Of a stretch of 64,000 bases of DNA, positions 1-10,909 are shown piece after piece. Source of the stretch: Auricularia sp. M13 (lineage: Eukaryota; Basidiomycota; Agaricomycetes; Auriculariales; Auriculariaceae); NCBI GenBank assembly GCA_037042915.1, contig CM073193.1, positions 9,356,554 through 9,420,553 on the forward strand. Reading direction: 5' to 3'. The notes under the pieces are model-generated. The model was not told the DNA's origin and did not search any database. It saw nothing but the letters and a program-made list of their open reading frames with translations. Made by a program: the position numbers and the translations under genes. Within the stretch, counting starts at the first letter, position 1, and each line of letters starts with the position of its first letter.

Positions 1-3000
1 CGTCTTTGTGAGATCTGCGCTGCGCTGTACCTCCATCCCGACAACTTGGCGAATCTGGCCCAAGTCGGAGATGTCGAAACGTTTCGAGAGCTCGGTTTTG
101 AGGGCCTCGTTGTCTTGTGCCGACGTGGCTAGCATCGTCATGTCGTCGACGTGTACCGCGACAATCCAGACTTTCTCACCGGACAAGCGCATGTAAACGC
201 ATAAACGCACCGGTCGCTGATGAGGCGCTTGAATCCCATTGCGATGAAAGCTGCGTCGAGCGTCGCGTTCCAAACGAGAGCCGATTGCTTGAGGCCATAA
301 ATCGAGCGTAGTACTTTGAGAACGTCGTCTGAGCCGTCTTGTAGCCCAGGTGGCTGCTCCATATAGATCTCCTCCGTCAGCGTTCCGTTGAGGTACGCGC
401 CAACGACATCGACGACCTGGACATCGAGTTTGAGTTCAGTGGCAATCGCAAGCATTCCTCTGAGCGTCTCCAGGCGAACGACAGGTGAGAAGGTTTCGAA
501 ATAGTCGACTCCGGCTTGTTGGGTGAACCTGCGAGCGACAAGTCGAGCCTTGTATTTGACAATTTCACCACGGTCGTTTCGTTTGATCTTGAACACCCAT
601 TTGCAGCTGATGGCACGACGATCGCGGGGAAGTTTCGTGCGACGGAACGTATGGAAACGTCGATGTTGTGCCATTTTTGCGTCTATGGCGGCGCGCCATT
701 TGTCGGCGTCAGGACGTCGCATGGCTTCTGCAAAAGTCGCAGGCTCGTCGTCCAATGTCTGCGCGGCGAAGACAAAGTCAAGGAGCTCAGAGTCATCGGC
801 CTCGGGTGCAGGCTGAGTCTCCGGTTCTGTGTCGGCGACATCAGGTTGTGCGGCAGCTTCGCGTGCCCGCTGGCGAGCTTTGGCTGCTCGGGAGTCCGGA
901 TTGCCGATGAGCTGGTAGTCAAGGCGTTCCTGTGTCGCTAAACGCGAGCTTCTCTTCGCGCCTTCAGCACGCGGACGGACGGGTGAAGTCTGTCGCAGCT
1001 GCTGAGGAACGGGGGCGCGAGCAATAGCGGGTGCAGGCGGCGTTGGTGGAGGCGGAGGTGCAGCTTGCACTGCAGGGAGAGGCTGAGGCTGAGCTTGCAG
1101 CGGCGGCGGCAGCGGCGGCGGTAGCGGTGCATATGGGAGTGGTACTGCGGGGATAGCCGGCGTGTGCAACTCCTCCGATGCGATGGACGGGGACTTTGGT
1201 GCGGGCGCGGTATCGTCTTGAACGTCGCGAATTCTAGTCCAAGATGGCAAGGGTAACGGGTCTTCTTCATCGCCAGCATTCTCCCCCTCAACCGGCACGC
1301 GAATGGCCTCGGGGCCAGCGGGCTGGTTGTCGTCAAAGATGACGCTTCTAGACATAAGAATTCGCCCTGTATCTGCCTTGTAATACCGATACGCGCGAGA
1401 TTCTTCTGTAAAACCCGTGAATGTATGCTGCACTGATCGATCTCCCAGTTTCGTGCGTAGCTTTTCGTGACGGTGTACCCACATTGCCGACCCGAACTTC
1501 CGTAGGTGCGCTAGACTCGGAACATGACCCCATGCCGCTTCGTATGGTGACGAATACGCAAGAGCACGAGTCGGGAGGCGATTCTTGATGTAGACGGCGT
1601 AGAGGACGGCTTCGTACCATAAGAAACGCGGTGCCGAGCAAGCGAATAGCATGGCTCGCGCCATGTTGAGAACTGTCAAATGTGCGCGTTCCACGATTGC
1701 GTTAGACGATGACGAATAAGGCGCTGTGATCTGTAGACGTATGCCTTGCTGCGCGAGGTACGCACGGACGGTGTCGTTGACGAATTCGAGTCCTTCGTCC
1801 ACTTGCAAGCATTTGAGTTGGACGCCGAACTGCGTCATTAGCCAGGCTTGGTACCACTTGATGTGTTCAAGCTGGTTACCCTTTGTCTTGCCGCCGTAGA
1901 CAACCGAGTAACGCGTCCTGCGATCGACAAAGTGTGTGAAATACTCTCCTCCACCGATTGCGCGCTGCGGCGCGCGTCCGAAAACGTCCAAGTGCACAAT
2001 CTCGCCGATGTGCATGCGCGATTTGTCTCGTTGCGACGAAGTTGGGAATGGTCGTGTAACGTGTTTCGCGCGAATGCAGGCGGGACACACGTGTTGTTTC
2101 TCGTTGAGGTCTGTGACGTGAATGCCGGTCATGCGCTTCTCCCTGACCATGCGCCGCAAATAATCGAAGTTGGCGTGGCCCTGGATTTCGTGCAGCTCAT
2201 GTAATGTACACGTGAACATCGCCGTAGCTGGCTGGGCGACAAGGTTGGCGCGGTGTAGTTCGCCGACACGGTAGCCGGTCATAATCTTCTCGCCGGAGCG
2301 TTTGTCGATGACGTGCGTACCGTGTTCTCCGAATATGACGAGTCGTCCTCCAAGCGTCAGTCGTGAGACGGAGATGAGGTTTGCCGGCGCACTGGGGATG
2401 TGCGCGACATTAGTCAGTCGAATATGGCGCGTGCGCTGTTCTCCCGTGAGGCCGACGCCCGTCGCCACGACCACGACTGTTCCAACTCCAAGTTTCGGGA
2501 TACGTTGAGAGCCAACGCCTCGCACAAAAGCGCCTGGCGTTTCGGTATACGTCTCGAAGATTGCGCGGTTGTTGGCGACGTTGATGTTCGCGCCACTGTC
2601 ATAGAAGAACGCATCAGGAACGACTGCCATGGCTGTGGCGTGGCTGTGCGCCGGCGCTGCGGGATCCTCAGGTTCATCGACCGATTCGGCGGGGACGTCG
2701 ATCAGGTGATTCTCCGTGTTCGCGACGAGCACGCGATAAGCGCCAGTGGGTACGAAGGGAACGGCGAGCGGGTTGAGCGGCTGCTGCGGCATCTCGCTCG
2801 GCGAATTGTCGCCCAGGGCGACCTCGGGAATAAGATCTGGCATAGCGTCATGCGTACCGTTCAGCATCCACACGTGGCCGAAGTTGACGGCCGAGATGTC
2901 TTCAATGGCCGCGTTGACCTGCGCCTGAAGCTCAGGAGGAACATCGTCAACGATGTCAATGCTCGTGCTCGCAGCGTTGGCATCGTCGTGCGATTCATCG

Positions 3001-3943
3001 GAGTAGTACACGCGTCCGTTGTACCTGATCGCGCGAGCTGGTTGTCCTCCTCGAAACGGACGTCCGCCTTGTGCGCGTGGATACGAGCCTCCTCGATTCG
3101 GCGGACCAGCGTGGCTGTGTTGACGCCACGCAGCAGCGTCAGCTCGCTGGCTCGCAGGTGTGCATGGTTCGAGGCAGTCACGCGAGAAGTGCCCGACCTT
3201 GCCGCAATTGTAGCAGGCCTGTACCGCGCGCCAGACGTACTCGTCCGGTAGAGCTCCTGCGGGATGCACGACATGCAGATGCGGCGGTGCGGCGGGCTGA
3301 TGTGCAAGAAGCGCGTTCTCAAGTGGTGCTGATGGCACCTTGGAGCGGCGCGATCGGAACTCTTCATTGATGCGCCTGACCAACGAGTTGGGCGTGACGT
3401 CTGCGGGGCGGTACCTCCTGACTTTGGTTGCGACAGTGAAGGTGTACGAGCCCGCAGTCTGGGTTGGCGTAGGTTGTGTGGGCGGCGTAGTTGACTGCGG
3501 CGAAGCGGCCAGTCCACCAGCAGAAGGAGTAACTGTGGTGGCTGCGCCAGTGATGCCGGGGACTGTGATCGTATGCGTCACGTCTTCGATCGCATCGTAC
3601 GCGGTCTGCAGGAACTGCTCGGGCTTGAATGTCGACGCGAAAGGGAGGTACGAATCGGGGAGCGAGAGCAACAGTGTCTTGCAGAACTGTTCGTCGGGAT
3701 TGGGAATAGGGGCACCGACATCCGCGAGCTGCGAACGTAGGTTCAGCGCGGTCGCGCAGTGCGTGGGAAGATCGGTAGTTTCGTCGGCCCGCATGTCCGC
3801 AAGACGCTGAAGCAGCGTAACTTGGGCAATGATGCCGGATGGGAGGTACGAATCCTCGAGCGCGCGCATCATCGTGAAAGCACTGAGGGTATGGTGCACA
3901 ATTGCTTTGTTTATCGGGCCCATGCGGAGGCGCATGATGCGCA
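1..3943 (-). pseudogene. copia gag-pol polyprotein, main part, frameshifted
   Basis: This is a polyprotein for retrotransposition. Reading down the minus strand I see a UBN2-type gag region and a CCHC zinc knuckle (C-x2-C-x4-H-x4-C, about 3175-3216). Then come an aspartic protease DSGAN motif (about 2585-2600) and an integrase HHCC finger (about 2100-2200). The integrase core D, D, E residues lie near 1990, 1795 and 1690. A long Pro-rich linker leads to reverse transcriptase with the conserved ARRFTQ and GAYLNG blocks. The frame breaks at 194-209 through an 8-bp tandem duplication. Beyond the break another frame continues the polymerase with the VDD catalytic motif (about 140-150). The first 57 or so codons are displaced to 10644-10815 by the nested transposon. 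With two independent lesions this copy is dead. The family assignment is secure. Confidence 0.93.
194..209. repeat. 8-bp tandem duplication causing a frameshift
   Basis: TAAACGCA occurs twice in direct succession. One copy would keep the reverse transcriptase in frame. The second copy shifts the frame just before the VDD motif of the copia polymerase. Confidence 0.85.
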
Positions 3944-3951
3944 TGCCAGCG
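3944..3951. repeat. target-site duplication, left copy (TGCCAGCG)
   Basis: This is identical to 10644-10651. The two copies directly flank the nested transposon. Taking out the element plus one copy rejoins the copia gag reading frame. Confidence 0.95.
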
Positions 3952-4440
3952 TAGGGTGCTGTTGAAAACTGTTTGTTAATAACAATGTTATTAACAAAGT
4001 GTTATTAACACGTTAATAACAGGGGTCCCCAGGACGGCCTTGTTAAAAACAAATTTGAACATATCAATTGCTGAGGCCCTGGCACTTTGCAGTGACATGA
4101 ATCTAATTTTGTATGAGCCTGAGTGCCTCAACATGAACTCAAGCTCGTGTTTTGTAATTTCAGAAGGTATGCAGACCTAGGCCAACGCTCTCAGCTGTGA
4201 GTGTATGATGACTAAGCGCTGCTCTGAGGCTTGGCCAAGGCTCCAAAACCATCAACATGAGGTGTGGACACCACAACAGCTTGTGGCATCTCCTTCGTGC
4301 AGTAATAGTTGACAAGAACATTTACAAAGGGTCATAATTGGGTCATTACCAAGGGTCCCTCGGAAAAAAAAATCCGGACACTAGGCCAAAAATTCCCATA
4401 AGAGCCATGAGCGGACCCCCTCCCCCCCTCCGGTCACGTG
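3952..4440. repeat. left terminal and subterminal repeats of the transposon
   Basis: The terminal inverted repeat is followed by reiterated palindromes of the form GTTAATAAC and GTTATTAAC, then by a C-rich stretch (about 4415-4435). A matching arrangement in opposite orientation sits at 10400-10643. No gene is visible from 3952 to 4548. These sites are probable transposase-binding sequences by analogy with other elements. Confidence 0.7.
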
Positions 4441-4548
4441 ACGTCTAAAGCAAGCACTAAACGATTCATACAATGCTATTAAAGCATATATTACATGAGT
4501 AAGTGGTGTATTTAAGGACGAACAACCCGACTGGCATTGGAAATCTGG

Positions 4549-7500
4549 TCACCGACGTGCCCGAGCACGCTTTGGAGCGCCGTTGCCGCTGCTTTCGCAG
4601 GATGGACAGATGAAAGGAACGGCAAGCTCTCTGCTACCCTTCAACTTCAACGCACAAGCTTTGTGAAACTAGGGAATTGTCAGCCTGTTTACCGCACAGC
4701 GAGCACACTGCTCACCCAATGGGTCTCGCAACCCTTGCCAACACACTCAACGAAGCCATCGGGCACTTCACCGGCATGTATTGTGGCTTCTTCTCCACAA
4801 ACGCAGACCTCCTCGATGACGGCTCGACCGCGCTTCCTCTTGGTCGCCCAGTTGCAGGTTGCGGCGCTGGGATTACCACTTGGTCAACGGGCTCGCTGCG
4901 GTCCTCAGGGTGCTCAACGTGCGGTGTCCGCACAGCCGTGTCACGTTCCGCGTCCGATGCAGGTGGCAAATCGTCCTCCTGTGCTATCGTGGGCACCATT
5001 TCGGAGCGCAAGAGGGCCGCTGAAGATGTAGCTGTTGCCAGATGACTGGGAGCATGTGCTGCAGCACGAAGCGCAGCTGCAGATCCGGAGTCTGTGCTGG
5101 CGTGTGGCTGCGGTTCCGGTGTGTCGATTGACGCGCCCTGTTGATCCTCGTCATCGGAGTCGAGCTCAGAGGTACTGTAACTAGATTAAGTGCTGAATCA
5201 AAATGACGACACACCACTCACTGCAAAGCCATGAGAGTAGAATGCGCGGCCGATATGGCCAGCTTTGGCTCTGTTGCGGGTTTCTTGGTTTTGCGCGAAT
5301 TGTGTATGCGCGTCCACAGGTTGCAAAGGCCGTCCTTCTCGTCTCTAGAGAGCTTCCAAAGGTCCTTGTACATCTGAGGGTCAGCTAAAGGGTGGTCCGA
5401 CTGGATATGAAGCTTGAGATTGTATTTCCAGACTGCGGGTGCGTCATCGGGGCACAGTGGACACCAAATCGGAACGTTTGAGCTCGGAGAGGACTTCTTG
5501 GATTGAACCGCAGAACCGTAGGAAAACTGGGTCGGGAGTCGAGGACAGGAACAGCGCTCGAGATTGAGCTGTTGGTTCGTAACATTGTCGCCTTTCTTAC
5601 AAAGAAAGAAGCGACATTTCCCATCTGAATTGAAGCAGAATCCGCAGTACTGGACAGTCTGCCGGACTGCGCTGTCAAAAAGTATGTGGGCGGCGATGTG
5701 ATTTACGAGGCCGGGAACAGAATCAATCTTGACCTTTGAGCTGCAGCGGTCGCACGCAAGCTTGTCAACGCCTACGCTCCAATCGTCTGGCTTCTGCGCC
5801 GCAAAGCAGTACTTGTCTAGACAATTTGTCAGTGCAGGGGAGTTTTGAGTGGGTGAAAGGCGCACCGTTGAGCCGATAGGGAAAATATGCCACCTTCTTC
5901 ACAGACGGCAACGAAAACTTGCTGTCTCGCTCCACCTTCTCAAGCAAAAGAAGTGTCAGTGCCGCGAGGTCCTCCTTTTTGAAGTGCATCGACGGTGCAC
6001 TTCCATCGGCCGATATCACAGTTACAGGCTTCACGGGCTGGATTAACGGTGCAATGGTTGAAAGGAGGGTGTCTGTCGAGGCGAATCGAACCGTGTCGGC
6101 TGTGCAGGACCAATCAAGACCTTCGTGATCGTCATCATCTCGAGGAACAAGACGCAGCACTTGGAAACCAATGTGATTTAGGGGATCGTCCAGCATTGCA
6201 CCGTGCAGGGCTTGGGCAGGCTTCGAATGAATGGAAATCGACGCAATCTGAATGATAGCTGTGAACGCGACGTTGCAACACCGCAGCATAGTGGCGGCAA
6301 TATCGTTGATCAAGAGCCGCGAGCCGTCTTCTCCATCGTCCACACTGGTCAAGGGTGTGAGGTTGTCCAAATTCGCATGATAACGCTTGCCACCCATCAC
6401 GCGTTGCAAACGATCTGTAGAGTCCGGTCCAAGTGGGTCCAGAGGATCGAGTATGCATCGAAGCACCGTCGCCTTGTAAATCTTGCTTGTTGGATCCCCA
6501 GATGTTGCAAATACCCAGGGCTCAGACGCAGCTGTCGGGCCCTTGTCCGCACGACATTGCTCCGCAAGTTCTGCTGCCGCATAATCGTCCAGCTCAAGGT
6601 CATCAGGGTTGGTGGATTGTGTACTGGTCGTCGCGGTCGGCGTCACAACCTGATATATAGTGAGCCCGAGCACATTCATAGAAAGTATATATGGTACTCT
6701 ACCTCTGGCATGTCCTCGTTCTCTTCCCCATCGAGAAGCTCGCCATTGAAGCAATATGATCCGATTGGTCGCAAAATGTCGATGTTTCCCTTGGCCTCCA
6801 TCTGCTCGAACGGAACATCTGCACCATATGCGGCGAGTCTTTCTGCTGCTACACGACGACCTTCCTTCCATGACGTGGGTATAGAGACATGGCTCACTTT
6901 GAGGTCCCCCGTCCACGAGCGCGGACTGATATGGTCGACTCCTTTGTCCAGTAGGGCGCCCTGCTCTTCCAGTGGCTTGAGCTGTAGACGCCGCTTCGTG
7001 CGATCCCACTCTGGATGATCACCAAATATGATCGAAATCTCTGCAGCGGCCGCGAGTCGTGAGGACGCCTGTAGCATGTCGACATTGGAATCGTTTCCGA
7101 CGCTGCAGCGCATGTTCCCAAAATCGTCTTCAAGTCGGTCAGAGCCTTCAAGACACAAGAAATATTCGCCCTCGGGGTTGTCGATCTGCGTTTTAGCAAC
7201 GGTGAATATTGCATTTTTAACCATACGAGCGCAGTCCGCGTAGAGCTGAATGGGAACGAATGCGCCACGACCCTCGGCGTACAGTGCAAGCATCAGGTGC
7301 ATAGCTGTGGAAAGCATCTCGATTTGCTCGCTCACGCTCATCGACAGAGTGACAAACGGCTTCAAGAAGCAGCCAAACATGAATCCCAACAGATTCAGAG
7401 CTTGCCGCGTCCTGATCCACTGGAACGAGTCCTCTGGGGATGGTTCCGGCAGCTTCATGATCGCGACGAGAAGGGAGTAAGCAAGCGGTACATCTTGCTT

Positions 7501-10192
7501 GTCGTTGGGGTTCATCAGCGAGCGAACGCGCGAGGGCGTGAGGCCGTTACTTGATAGATGCTTCTGGACTTGGTTGCGAACTGCCTCGCTGACCGGCTCG
7601 TCGGACTCGGTGATAAGAGATAGAGCATGCTCTGGGAAAGTCCGGCGAAGTAGGTGCTCTTTGAGGATGGAAGGCGTGATCATATTCCCGCAGATCGAAG
7701 TGCCGTTGCTGCGCAGTAACGAGCTACGCATGCGCTTGAAGAGATGCTTGGGATCTTTGCTCAACGTCATCGTGCCTGGACCACAAAGCAAGTTGAATAG
7801 CTGAAGCTTGCTGAGCACAGGGTACAGCGGCGAGTCTTGAGGAAGAGTCTGGCACAGAGTCAAAGGCACTAGGGCCTTTCCTCGTTTGGCTTCGCCATCG
7901 GTCGCGATAGAGTATATCCGCGTGTGTTGGAGCTTTGCATGCTTTGACGCCGTTTCGATAATTGTCTGAAGGAGCCCCATCTGTGCGGCAGCGTCCTCGA
8001 GCTTGCAGGTCCCAGAGACGAGAATAGGTCGGGCAACTTGATCCCGTGAAGTGCGCACGAGAGGGCCGAGGGCTGCAACGGTCATCTGCTCGAAAGTAAG
8101 TGGGAGATAAGACATTAAATTCGACGTGCGTCACTGACCTCCTTTGATAGATGCACTGATTTATCCTGAAGCGCAGACGAGACGGCGAGAGCTGTGCCGA
8201 GGTTCCGAAACTCGAGGTCAAGGTGGCTTGCGTGTTCGCGACACGTCCCAAGGATTAGATTTGTGCTCGGGTCCCAGCGCAGTCGCTCTTCCACCTTGCA
8301 CTCGTCAATCATCAAGACGACACCTGTCCGAGTACCATATGGAGGCGGCGGAATGGGATTCGGATACATCTTGTCAATGTTGAGCGTAATCTCAGCTGGC
8401 GTAGGGTATCCCGCAGATACGCGGATCGCCGGAACATGCGAATGACGGTGGATAGTCTCTGGGGATGGTAGCCCAAGGGCACGGGAAGCCAGCGAGGATA
8501 CAGTATCGCCACCGAGGCGATATAAAAGTGTTGCAACGGCAAAGTCTTTCTCGGTATAGCTGCGAGCGTGATAAACTTGCCTTGCGGCTTTGTCTACCAG
8601 ACTGAGCATCGCGCGCACGCTGCGCTTGTTGTTGATGGCGACCTTGAGAACCGCGGCGACTCGAGGAATATCATCTACATGGTATGAGCACATTGCAAAC
8701 CCAATGTGCCAATGCTTACCGTTCGCGATGGCCCAGACCAACCGGTTGTGATCGTCCACAGTCCCAGCAACTCGCGTCAGTTTCCACGCCAGGGAAAGCG
8801 CGCCTAGCTTGTGCTTGTTGTTCTCCTTCCGCAGGCGGCCATTCGAGTCGTACATGTTCTCCCAGCTGAGAAAAAGCGTGTTGGTAAACTGCGAAACACC
8901 GTTTCGCATGCGATCGAGAAGATTGACGACGAGCGGTCGGTTCTCGAGGTCGGAACACTCTTTACACGGCGGGGAAAGGCTGTCATTGTGACAGAACGTG
9001 GACTTGATGTACAGCTTCCCGTCAACTGCGTTACCTCGCCATGCAAAGCGACGACTAATGTCCATCCCCCACGGATACGGGGCTCCAGCTACTCTGTCTG
9101 GTGCCAGGTCGACCGGAAGGCCATAACAGCGCCGCATAGCGTTCGAAGGACCAAGTGGATGCACTGTGCCGACAGACCGATCAGGATTTGCCGCACTGGA
9201 TGAGTTCGGGCCCGAGTCTGTAGTGGACGCGTCGATAGACTGGCCAAGATCATCGTCTGCCGTGAGGTCAATGATATTCCGTGCGGCTGATTGACTAGGA
9301 TCTCCGGCTGATTCGGGTAGCGCTGGCTCGTTTCTGTGAGCGGAACACCTATGTGCGCAGTCAGATCATAGCACTATTCTGCGTCAGACTGGAAAAATAA
9401 ACTCACAGTTTATCAATGGCGCGGATAATGCGCAATATCTTCCCATGAAAGAGAACCTCGTCGATTCCGGCATCCTGGATGTGTAGCTCAATCCAGTCGC
9501 AGAGAGCCTGCACCCGAGAGGGCCACGGCGTAGAAGTTTTCCGATCGAGTCCTCGGAGCAGTCGCCCCCGAAATTTCGATTCAGAGTGGCGTCAACGGCC
9601 TCCCATATCTCTTCCTTCGCATCCTGATCTTCGCGTATACGGTCGGGGAACACTGGCGGGATGGCAAATGAGGCCGTGACGTCAAGAATAGTGGCCTCGG
9701 GAACGGTGCATGGGATGCGACGAATAGCGCCCTGCAATTGCAGATGATAGCGTATGGCGACTTCCTGACTGGTAATTGAGGTGTGGGAAAAGCAGGAGGT
9801 GTTATTGGACTAGCGGCAGTAAGAGCAGAAATCGAAGTAGAGGGGCCACGGAGCAACGGTGGTGCTGAAGGGGCGGGTGCAGCAGTCTTGGGTTTAAAGA
9901 AGCTGGATATCGAGCTGTCCTTCAGCTTACGCACAGCAGGGATCTTGGAAAACAGCTTGAGGTGGCGTGCATGCTCAGCGGATGCACGATGGATCTCGAG
10001 GTTCTTGAATCCACCAGTGCCGACCTTGACTTTAAGACCGCAATCACAGTCCCATACAGAGCTTGTATCGAACTGGAAAACGAGTAAGTAGCGTCCTAGA
10101 GTTCACGGCTGGGACATTACCTCGTGCTCCTGGCCGTCTGGCCCGACCTGGATGCTGACGCCTCTCCGAGAAGTGCTGCTGGTTGCGGACAT
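4549..10192 (-). CDS. P-like transposase with BED-like, C2HC-type and PHD-like fingers
   Basis: The start ATG is at 10192. Exon 1 is 10121-10192. Other introns read cleanly at 10073-10120, 8086-8138, 6650-6702, 5817-5865 and 4669-4715, with further introns near 9400 and 5220. The order is: a BED-like finger (C-x-C, then H-x6-H) about residues 30-60; a SISSFFKPK motif; an IIDLTADDD SUMO-interaction-like motif (9249-9275); and MIDE...EERLRWD with CREH (near 8200-8300). Next come TDGEAKRG (near 7900), DPKHLFKRMR (near 7750) and EGSDRLEDDFGNMR-x4-GNDSN (near 7090-7160). These four blocks parallel the P-element/THAP9 blocks DE...YD, DG, HLxKxxRN and DxLExxFxxxR. The C-terminus has CDRC, CGFC and CPLC zinc pairs, a basic KRKRGR stretch, and a PHD-like finger (CVCG, ECVGKGCETHW|FHKAC, FICPSC). 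The frame slips near 9513 and about 4840-4870. Total product would be near 1,750 residues. Confidence 0.75.
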
Positions 10193-10399
10193 CGTGGGTA
10201 CGTGAAAGCGTAGCTGATACTGGGTGGTTCAAGACAACCCATGTCGATCCGCAGCTTTTAAGGCGCGGCGCGACATGGGTTGCCTTGTACCACGAGCTGC
10301 TGCACCACAAATGACGGCTGTGGGCAACGCAGATTGCCCGGCGGATATCGCCGGATGCATCTGATGACGAACTTCGTACGCCTAAACCAAGCCTAATCT

Positions 10400-10643
10400 G
10401 CTAATTTGAGGTCAAAATTCTTGCATCAAAAAATTCTCATAACGCCCCCAATCCGACCCCCCTCCCCCCCGCCTCGTGTTATCGGATTTTGCCGACGAGG
10501 GACCCTTGGTCATTACTAACTCTCAGAGCTTCCTTTGTTATATTATGTAAGTTTGTTATTAACAGTGTTTTTAACACTGTGTTAATAACAGATTTTGTTA
10601 AAAACATGTTAAAAACTCCCGGGGAGTTTTTAACAGCACCCTA
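10400..10643. repeat. right terminal and subterminal repeats of the transposon
   Basis: This mirrors the left end. A C-rich block is followed by an ACCCTTGGTCATTA-like block, then repeated GTTATTAAC, GTTTTTAAC and GTTAAAAAC palindromes, a CTCCCGGGGAG hairpin, and the terminal AACAGCACCCTA. The interval 10193-10400 is the promoter side of the transposase gene and shows no other gene. Confidence 0.7.
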
Positions 10644-10651
10644 TGCCAGCG
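10644..10651. repeat. target-site duplication, right copy (TGCCAGCG)
   Basis: Exact partner of 3944-3951. Confidence 0.95.
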
Positions 10652-10815
10652 GCATCGTGACCAGCGGTATCGTTTGCGGGGTCGAGCTCGCCCTTGATGT
10701 ATTTAAGGATGTCTTCGTGTTTCTCGGCGGCGATGTCGTATATGTCAGAGCGCCAGGATAGAAAATTGCCGCCGTCCTCGGCGAGGTGCTGAACGGTCAA
10801 TCGATCGGTGGCCAT
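10644..10815 (-). pseudogene. copia gag N-terminus, separated fragment
   Basis: ATG at 10815 opens a frame beginning MATDRLTVQHLAEDGGNFLSW. This is the typical copia Gag N-terminus, with the NFLSW block of the UBN2/DUF4219-like region. It runs to the transposon junction and continues in the same frame at 3943 on the other side, with residues GHDAAG then MRIMRLRMG. This is the missing start of the gag-pol at 1-3943. Confidence 0.88.
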
Positions 10816-10909
10816 CGCGGGTCCGTGCGTAAAGCGACTGCGTCCGTATAGCGTCCGTTGTTAGCGTATCGAGTGTTTGAGCGTCCGTGTCGTCGATTAG
10901 CGTGCGGCG

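Follow-up and report, generated by a model that had tools for sequence, protein, structure and literature searches.

We analyzed a 64,000-nucleotide stretch of contig CM073193.1 from the mushroom Auricularia sp. M13 (positions 9,356,554 to 9,420,553; hereafter the window) and found that window positions 4350–10508 are a transposase-bearing element inserted inside another, shorter mobile element. With a probability that we put at roughly 0.85, this is a cut-and-paste DNA transposon of the autonomous type that falls within a fungal branch of the P superfamily or close beside it. In the mechanism that we propose, a multi-exon gene would encode a transposase with an N-terminal finger, a helix-turn-helix (HTH), an RNase H-type D/D/E core and C-terminal fingers, the core carrying a large insertion between a D-x2-H and a D-x2-E motif. 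The finger and the HTH are predicted to bind the CAAGGG ends of the element, and the acidic residues would excise it; strand transfer with an 8-bp stagger would then leave 8-bp duplications at the target.

Scanning the region for exact 8-bp duplications adjoining inverted repeats revealed two pairs, one nested in the other. The outer pair (3952/10643) has the target site duplication (TSD) TGCCAGCG and the terminal inverted repeat (TIR) TAGGGTGCTGTT; the inner pair (4350/10508) has the 8-bp TSD GTCATTAC and the TIR CAAGGGTCCCTCG. An initial annotation of this DNA had assigned the outer pair to the transposase element. The duplication and inverted ends it described are real, but they belong to a 525-bp miniature inverted-repeat transposable element (MITE), and the transposase-bearing element lies within that MITE. 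As ends of the transposase element, 3952/10643 were ruled out, because MITE copies exist elsewhere without the insert and the inner element has a TIR and TSD of its own.

The empty sites were found by a whole-genome DNA search. Among the matches listed, at least 13 places match query positions 1–398 in full, and 13 of 13 continue into positions 6557–6692. The two matches overlap by 9 nucleotides, which correspond to a single TSD copy and one further base common to both; once the insert and the duplicate TSD are subtracted, the MITE measures 525 bp. The joined inner flanks are uninterrupted in all five MITE copies tested (92–94 bp, gap-free, 95.7–97.9% identity). The outer flanks, once joined, sit in an open copia-type frame. 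These empty MITE sites, together with the open copia frame across the outer flanks, establish the order of insertion: the MITE entered the copia element, and the transposase element then entered the MITE. The features are as follows, with the strand given where one applies.

138–4001, minus strand: C-terminal part of a Ty1/copia-type polyprotein frame (long open reading frame; family name by inspection)
3944–3951: outer 8-bp TSD TGCCAGCG, left copy (TSD/TIR scan)
3952–4349: outer MITE, left part, with TIR TAGGGTGCTGTT; terminates with one inner TSD copy
4342–4349: inner 8-bp TSD GTCATTAC, left copy
4350–10508, minus strand: the P-like transposon itself (6159 bp; its gene is read from this strand)
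4350–4362, plus strand: inner TIR CAAGGGTCCCTCG
10496–10508, minus strand: inner TIR CAAGGGTCCCTCG, reverse strand
10509–10516: inner TSD GTCATTAC, right copy
10517–10643: outer MITE, right part
10644–10651: outer TSD TGCCAGCG, right copy

The MITE splits the copia-type polyprotein (window 138–4001 and 10651–10860), whose frame stays open when the site is joined; the 138–4001 frame extends slightly into the MITE that interrupts it.

A protein search revealed relatives of the element elsewhere in the genome, at 28–99% identity by segment and in several diverged families; a second protein search with L045 as query found no further locus in this genome. We examined 15 loci, namely the window and L037–L050. 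All 15 have CAAGGG ends, 13 of them with an exact 8-bp TSD, and the elements range from ∼5.0 to 6.3 kb in length. In a fixed scan, 10 of the 15 showed a perfect 12-bp TIR beside a TSD, and L044 showed the same pairing with 2 mismatches. The ends of L042, L043, L047 and L049 were found only by a looser search anchored on CAAGGG, the fixed-scan matches for L047 and L049 being chance ones. At these last two loci the TIRs match at 14 of 14 bases, with TSD bases matching at only 4 of 8 and 1 of 8, respectively. L045 and L046 are the same element at two places on one contig (C11), with reverse-complementary TSDs, and are probably a single duplicated insertion; counting them as one leaves a TSD in 12 of 14 independent loci. 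Their pattern suggests that a segment was duplicated in inverted orientation, not that two insertions took place.

As a control, five loci of 8.0–9.3 kb were shuffled 40 times each and scanned at separations of 3.5–8.5 kb. None of the 200 shuffles contained an exact 8-bp TSD adjoining a perfect 12-bp TIR, and 3 contained one adjoining a TIR with 1–2 mismatches. The copy on contig C5 (L037) is 99.4% identical to the window element over 6166 aligned columns, yet its TSD differs, which points to recent movement of the element. In addition, all five short derivatives that we fetched (L051–L055; 503–514 bp, non-autonomous) have perfect 12-bp TIRs and 8-bp TSDs and keep the ends of the longer element. 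Pattern matching against viral and prokaryote contigs yielded 74 and 34 stretches, respectively, and no relative was confirmed among either set.

The transposase gene lies on the minus strand. The four protein blocks reported in the initial annotation are present there, in order and on both sides of a 53-bp GT-AG intron (8086–8138), and we added to them an upstream HTH block that aligns with Drosophila P. Exons were joined at GT-AG introns of 44–61 bp in the window, L037, L039, L041, L044 and L048–L050, and by alignment in L038, L040, L042 and L043. The parts of the gene, in order of transcription, are listed below.

9387–10192, minus strand: N-terminal region, C2H2-like finger by eye
8139–9330, minus strand: transposase region with the HTH-like block and the first D (edge 9330 taken from the initial annotation)
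8675–8719, minus strand: probable in-frame GT-AG intron, 45 bp (by inspection; no counterpart in relatives)
8442–8561, minus strand: HTH-like block SYTEKDFAVATLLYRLGGDTVSSLASRALGLPSPETIHRH, aligned to the Drosophila P HTH region
8304–8306, minus strand: predicted first catalytic Asp (MIDE), counterpart of P D230 by alignment
8086–8138, minus strand: 53-bp GT-AG intron separating the catalytic exons (same junction in L037, L039, L041 and L044)
6703–8085, minus strand: exon with the second D, D-x2-H, the insertion region and D-x2-E
7897–7899, minus strand: predicted second catalytic Asp (TDGE), counterpart of P D303 by alignment
7744–7755, minus strand: D-P-K-H, counterpart of P D339-x2-H
7129–7140, minus strand: D-R-L-E, counterpart of P D528/E531
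5765–6660, minus strand: open frame linking the RNase H core and the C-terminal fingers
5218–5898, minus strand: C-terminal exon region, several C2H2-like fingers by eye (similar in relatives)
4689–4883, minus strand: C-terminal cysteine-rich finger-like stretch by eye (similar stretch in L040)

We built a profile from the aligned cores of 9 of the 15 relatives, excluding L037, L043, L046, L047 and L049 as near-duplicates and also excluding L039. The key acids are invariant in all nine cores: the first D (of MIDE; D157), the second D (of TDGE; D275), the D-x2-H (of DPKH; D323-x2-H326) and the D-x2-E (of DRLE; D528-x2-E531). In a D-K-Q-x-V segment, the D, Q and V are likewise invariant across the nine, and the K is variable. 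The first and second D are 117–121 residues apart, the second D precedes the D-x2-H by 48–49 and the E by 224–257, and 173–206 residues separate the D-x2-H from the D of the D-x2-E. The corresponding distances in Drosophila P (residues 230, 303, 339, 528 and 531) are 73, 36, 228 and 189. A passage in PMC8230255 gives the P superfamily signature as D ... D ... [C/D]-x2-H ... E, and this string occurs in order in 9 of 9 relatives.

The nine-sequence profile was compared by hhalign with Drosophila P transposase (PDB 6P5A, residues 99–569), giving a score of 30.3 and an E of 0.0058. The aligned parts comprise the HTH, the D230 block (VLMIDECKVEERLRWDPSTN versus VLAFDEMKVAAAFEYDSSAD), the D303 region, D339-x2-H and the K398QKV segment. 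The best score among 300 shuffles was 26.87, below 30.3, and the reversed sequence scored 17.45; among 17 pieces of 14 other frames from the window, the best was 20.84. When pieces of P were tested singly, the HTH scored 23.5 (E 0.0089), the catalytic region plus insertion 28.6 and the last 54 residues 18.1, these last aligning D528/E531 with the D-x2-E. Addition of P to the alignment with MAFFT put D230, D303, D339 and E531 on the same columns. The P-superfamily-like reading offered in the initial annotation is thus supported, since the D/D/E residues, the D-x2-H, the D before the E and the HTH all align with Drosophila P. Of the "DG" block in that annotation, only the D is common to both, Drosophila P having SDLG where these proteins have T/S-D-G. 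The HTH ahead of the catalytic core is present by sequence alignment only, and the Pfam scans of exons and cores did not report PF12017.

Family models point the same way at sub-threshold scores. PF21787 (P-type RNase H, N-terminal part) was the sole transposase family in Pfam to respond: the window exon matched with an E of 0.21, and 4 of 9 cores were listed at E up to 5. The best core was that of L044 (E 4.5e-4; 21.0 bits against a cut-off of 24.6, Drosophila P itself scoring 47.2 bits). Across the whole genome, PF21787 matched 3 places at E up to 1, and 3 of 3 lie in relatives of the element (L042, L043 and L044).

Several results nevertheless weigh against placement in the P superfamily. 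No PF21787 match attained the Pfam gathering score, and 5 of 9 cores, L041 included, were unlisted even at E 5. PF21788 (the GTP-binding insertion) had no match in the genome, with the control equally silent, and the four genome places matched by PF21789 all lie outside the 15 loci. Searching PDB with phmmer and with the profile recovered no P structure. The hhalign comparison with its E of 0.0058 carried a probability of only 6.4%, a global hhalign run produced a meaningless alignment, and the MAFFT addition misplaced D528. The spacing of 117–121 between the first two acids stands against 73 in Drosophila P. An AlphaFold prediction for one exon from a single sequence gave an unusable model, with a predicted local distance difference test (pLDDT) score of 36.

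These observations could be accommodated by a DDE superfamily distinct from P that has D-x2-H and D-x2-E in common with it through RNase H ancestry or convergence and not through the P lineage. The unmet Pfam cut-offs, the longer first spacing, the low hhalign probability, the lack of a THAP domain and the lack in most cores of a counterpart to the GTP-contacting pair D444/N447 (discussed below) all fit such an origin. We nonetheless consider it improbable: the HTH and the K-Q-x-V insertion segment align with P in addition to the acids, two relatives have a D-x2-N at almost the P distance, and Basidiomycota are already on record as having P elements and a P-Fungi class.

A divergent hAT transposon is a still less likely identity for the element. 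TSDs of 8 bp are usual for hAT, an RNase H-fold insertion domain and zinc fingers would fit as well, and the enclosing MITE looks hAT-derived. However, no hAT family appeared in the Pfam scans of exons and cores, and the 15 loci contain 0 of the 21 matches to the hAT dimerisation domain. Against the profile, a hAT-like protein encoded in this genome scored 16.9 and 19.9 (two pieces), within noise, and one frame of the Kyakuja-Dileera-Zisupton (KDZ) class scored 17.0; these three sequences are shorter than the P query (418, 357 and 305 residues). The termini differ too, CAAGGG in the P-like element versus TAGGG on the hAT side. A KDZ transposon is hardly credible, even though Zisupton also makes 8-bp TSDs and KDZ is abundant in this genome (149 transposase-domain matches, many with open frames), since none of the 149 lies at any of the 15 loci, the Pfam scans of the cores gave no PF18758 match and the KDZ frame scored 17.0. 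Short introns and the many KDZ matches would be in keeping with a mushroom-forming host. A best match to hAT or KDZ, the outcome against which the initial annotation had cautioned, was therefore not what sequence-level comparison returned (Pfam; hhalign with one protein per class).

Assignment to the P superfamily raises the matter of GTP, which Drosophila P contacts through D528, K385, K400, V401, S409, F443, D444 and N447, as set out in a passage of PMC7776569; D444 is called essential in a passage of PMC8230255. V401 and D528 have invariant counterparts in the cores, and K400 aligns with D or N. The insertion between D-x2-H and D-x2-E is similar in length to that of Drosophila P. At the column of D444 and N447, a candidate pair is found in 2 of 9 cores (L048 and L050) and a D alone in one (L045); neither counterpart occurs in the other six, which are the window, L038, L040, L041, L042 and L044. 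In L048 and L050 the D-x2-N (SDVLN) precedes the D of D-x2-E by 81 residues, and in P the distance from D444/N447 to D528 is 84. A D-x2-N at a distance of 79–89 arose in 111 of 5000 shuffles of L048 and 116 of 5000 of L050. Because it arises in shuffles and was sought after the fact, we treat the pair as a lead.

Judged from these alignments, the type of element found in the window may have lost GTP dependence. We hold as a tentative and rather doubtful extension that, within a fungal P lineage, the L048/L050 subgroup keeps the D-x2-N GTP contact and the window's subgroup lost it, so that the two differ in GTP dependence. If this were true, and with zinc fingers in place of THAP, the family would illustrate the way in which P transposition can escape GTP control. 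The variation that exists in nature at the candidate contact would permit a direct test of GTP's role in P transposition.

Three N-terminal frames searched against Pfam at E up to 5 had no match to a THAP domain. THAP is stated in a passage of PMC7776569 to be absent from fungi, and therefore THAP may not apply as a criterion for fungal members. A C2H2-like finger N-terminally and several finger-like stretches C-terminally were recognized by eye, with weak Pfam support: the C-terminal region 5218–5898 matched zf-C2H2_12 at an E of only 0.27, and the cysteine-rich stretch 4689–4883 had no meaningful Pfam match.

The element resembles Drosophila P and zebrafish Pdre2/THAP9 in several respects: it has 8-bp TSDs and internally deleted derivatives, an HTH precedes its D/D/E RNase H core, and that core has the D-x2-H signature, a large insertion (173–206 residues here, 189 in Drosophila) and a D three residues before the E. 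Zebrafish Pdre2 has short TIRs starting with CA, as does the window element. Drosophila P TIRs likewise start with CA. Unlike Drosophila P and Pdre2, the element has no THAP that we could find and has finger-like stretches at both protein ends; unlike Drosophila P, it has D or N at K400, and the window copy lacks the D444/N447 pair. Fungal P-type elements are known from earlier reports. A section of PMC3164196 describes the rust-fungus elements P-1_PSt, P-1_MLP and P-2_MLP, reported in 2011, and notes 8-bp TSDs and both autonomous and non-autonomous copies for those of Melampsora. A section of PMC12387193 lists a P-Fungi repeat class in Pleurotus ostreatus in 2025 (10 copies, 46,557 bp, about 4.7 kb each). 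Compared by description only, the rust elements share with ours the Basidiomycota and the P superfamily, and the P-Fungi class is a P class named for fungi in a mushroom genome. Both weaken the initial annotation's remark that P-like is not the usual label for such elements.

The simplest verdict is that the element is a further P-type fungal transposon of a known class, with unusually clear anatomy; given the earlier fungal reports, the find is well supported yet for the most part unremarkable. A literature search aimed at transposons of the P type in Agaricomycotina gave no papers, and fungal P elements may be better known than the sources used here show. The element and its relatives are of value as fungal P-like elements whose limits are exact, that appear to be recent, and for which ends, duplications and empty sites are all on record; curated protein models overlook them at their cut-offs. 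In other respects, the work usefully annotates a class that is known from rusts and has been tabulated for one mushroom.

The outer MITE belongs to a family of its own. Its TIR TAGGGTGCTGTT occurs at 56 genome sites, 28 per strand, with at most 1 mismatch. At one locus on C2 (L058), a pair of MITE-type TIRs spans 4.35 kb with the 8-bp TSD CGGTAGGC and encodes a DUF659 protein (E 4.8e-10), making it a candidate autonomous partner of the 525-bp MITE family. Because that protein carries DUF659, which we take to be a hAT-associated domain, the MITE is probably a hAT derivative. Since the outer duplication belongs to this MITE, it has no bearing on the P assignment; the inner duplication does.

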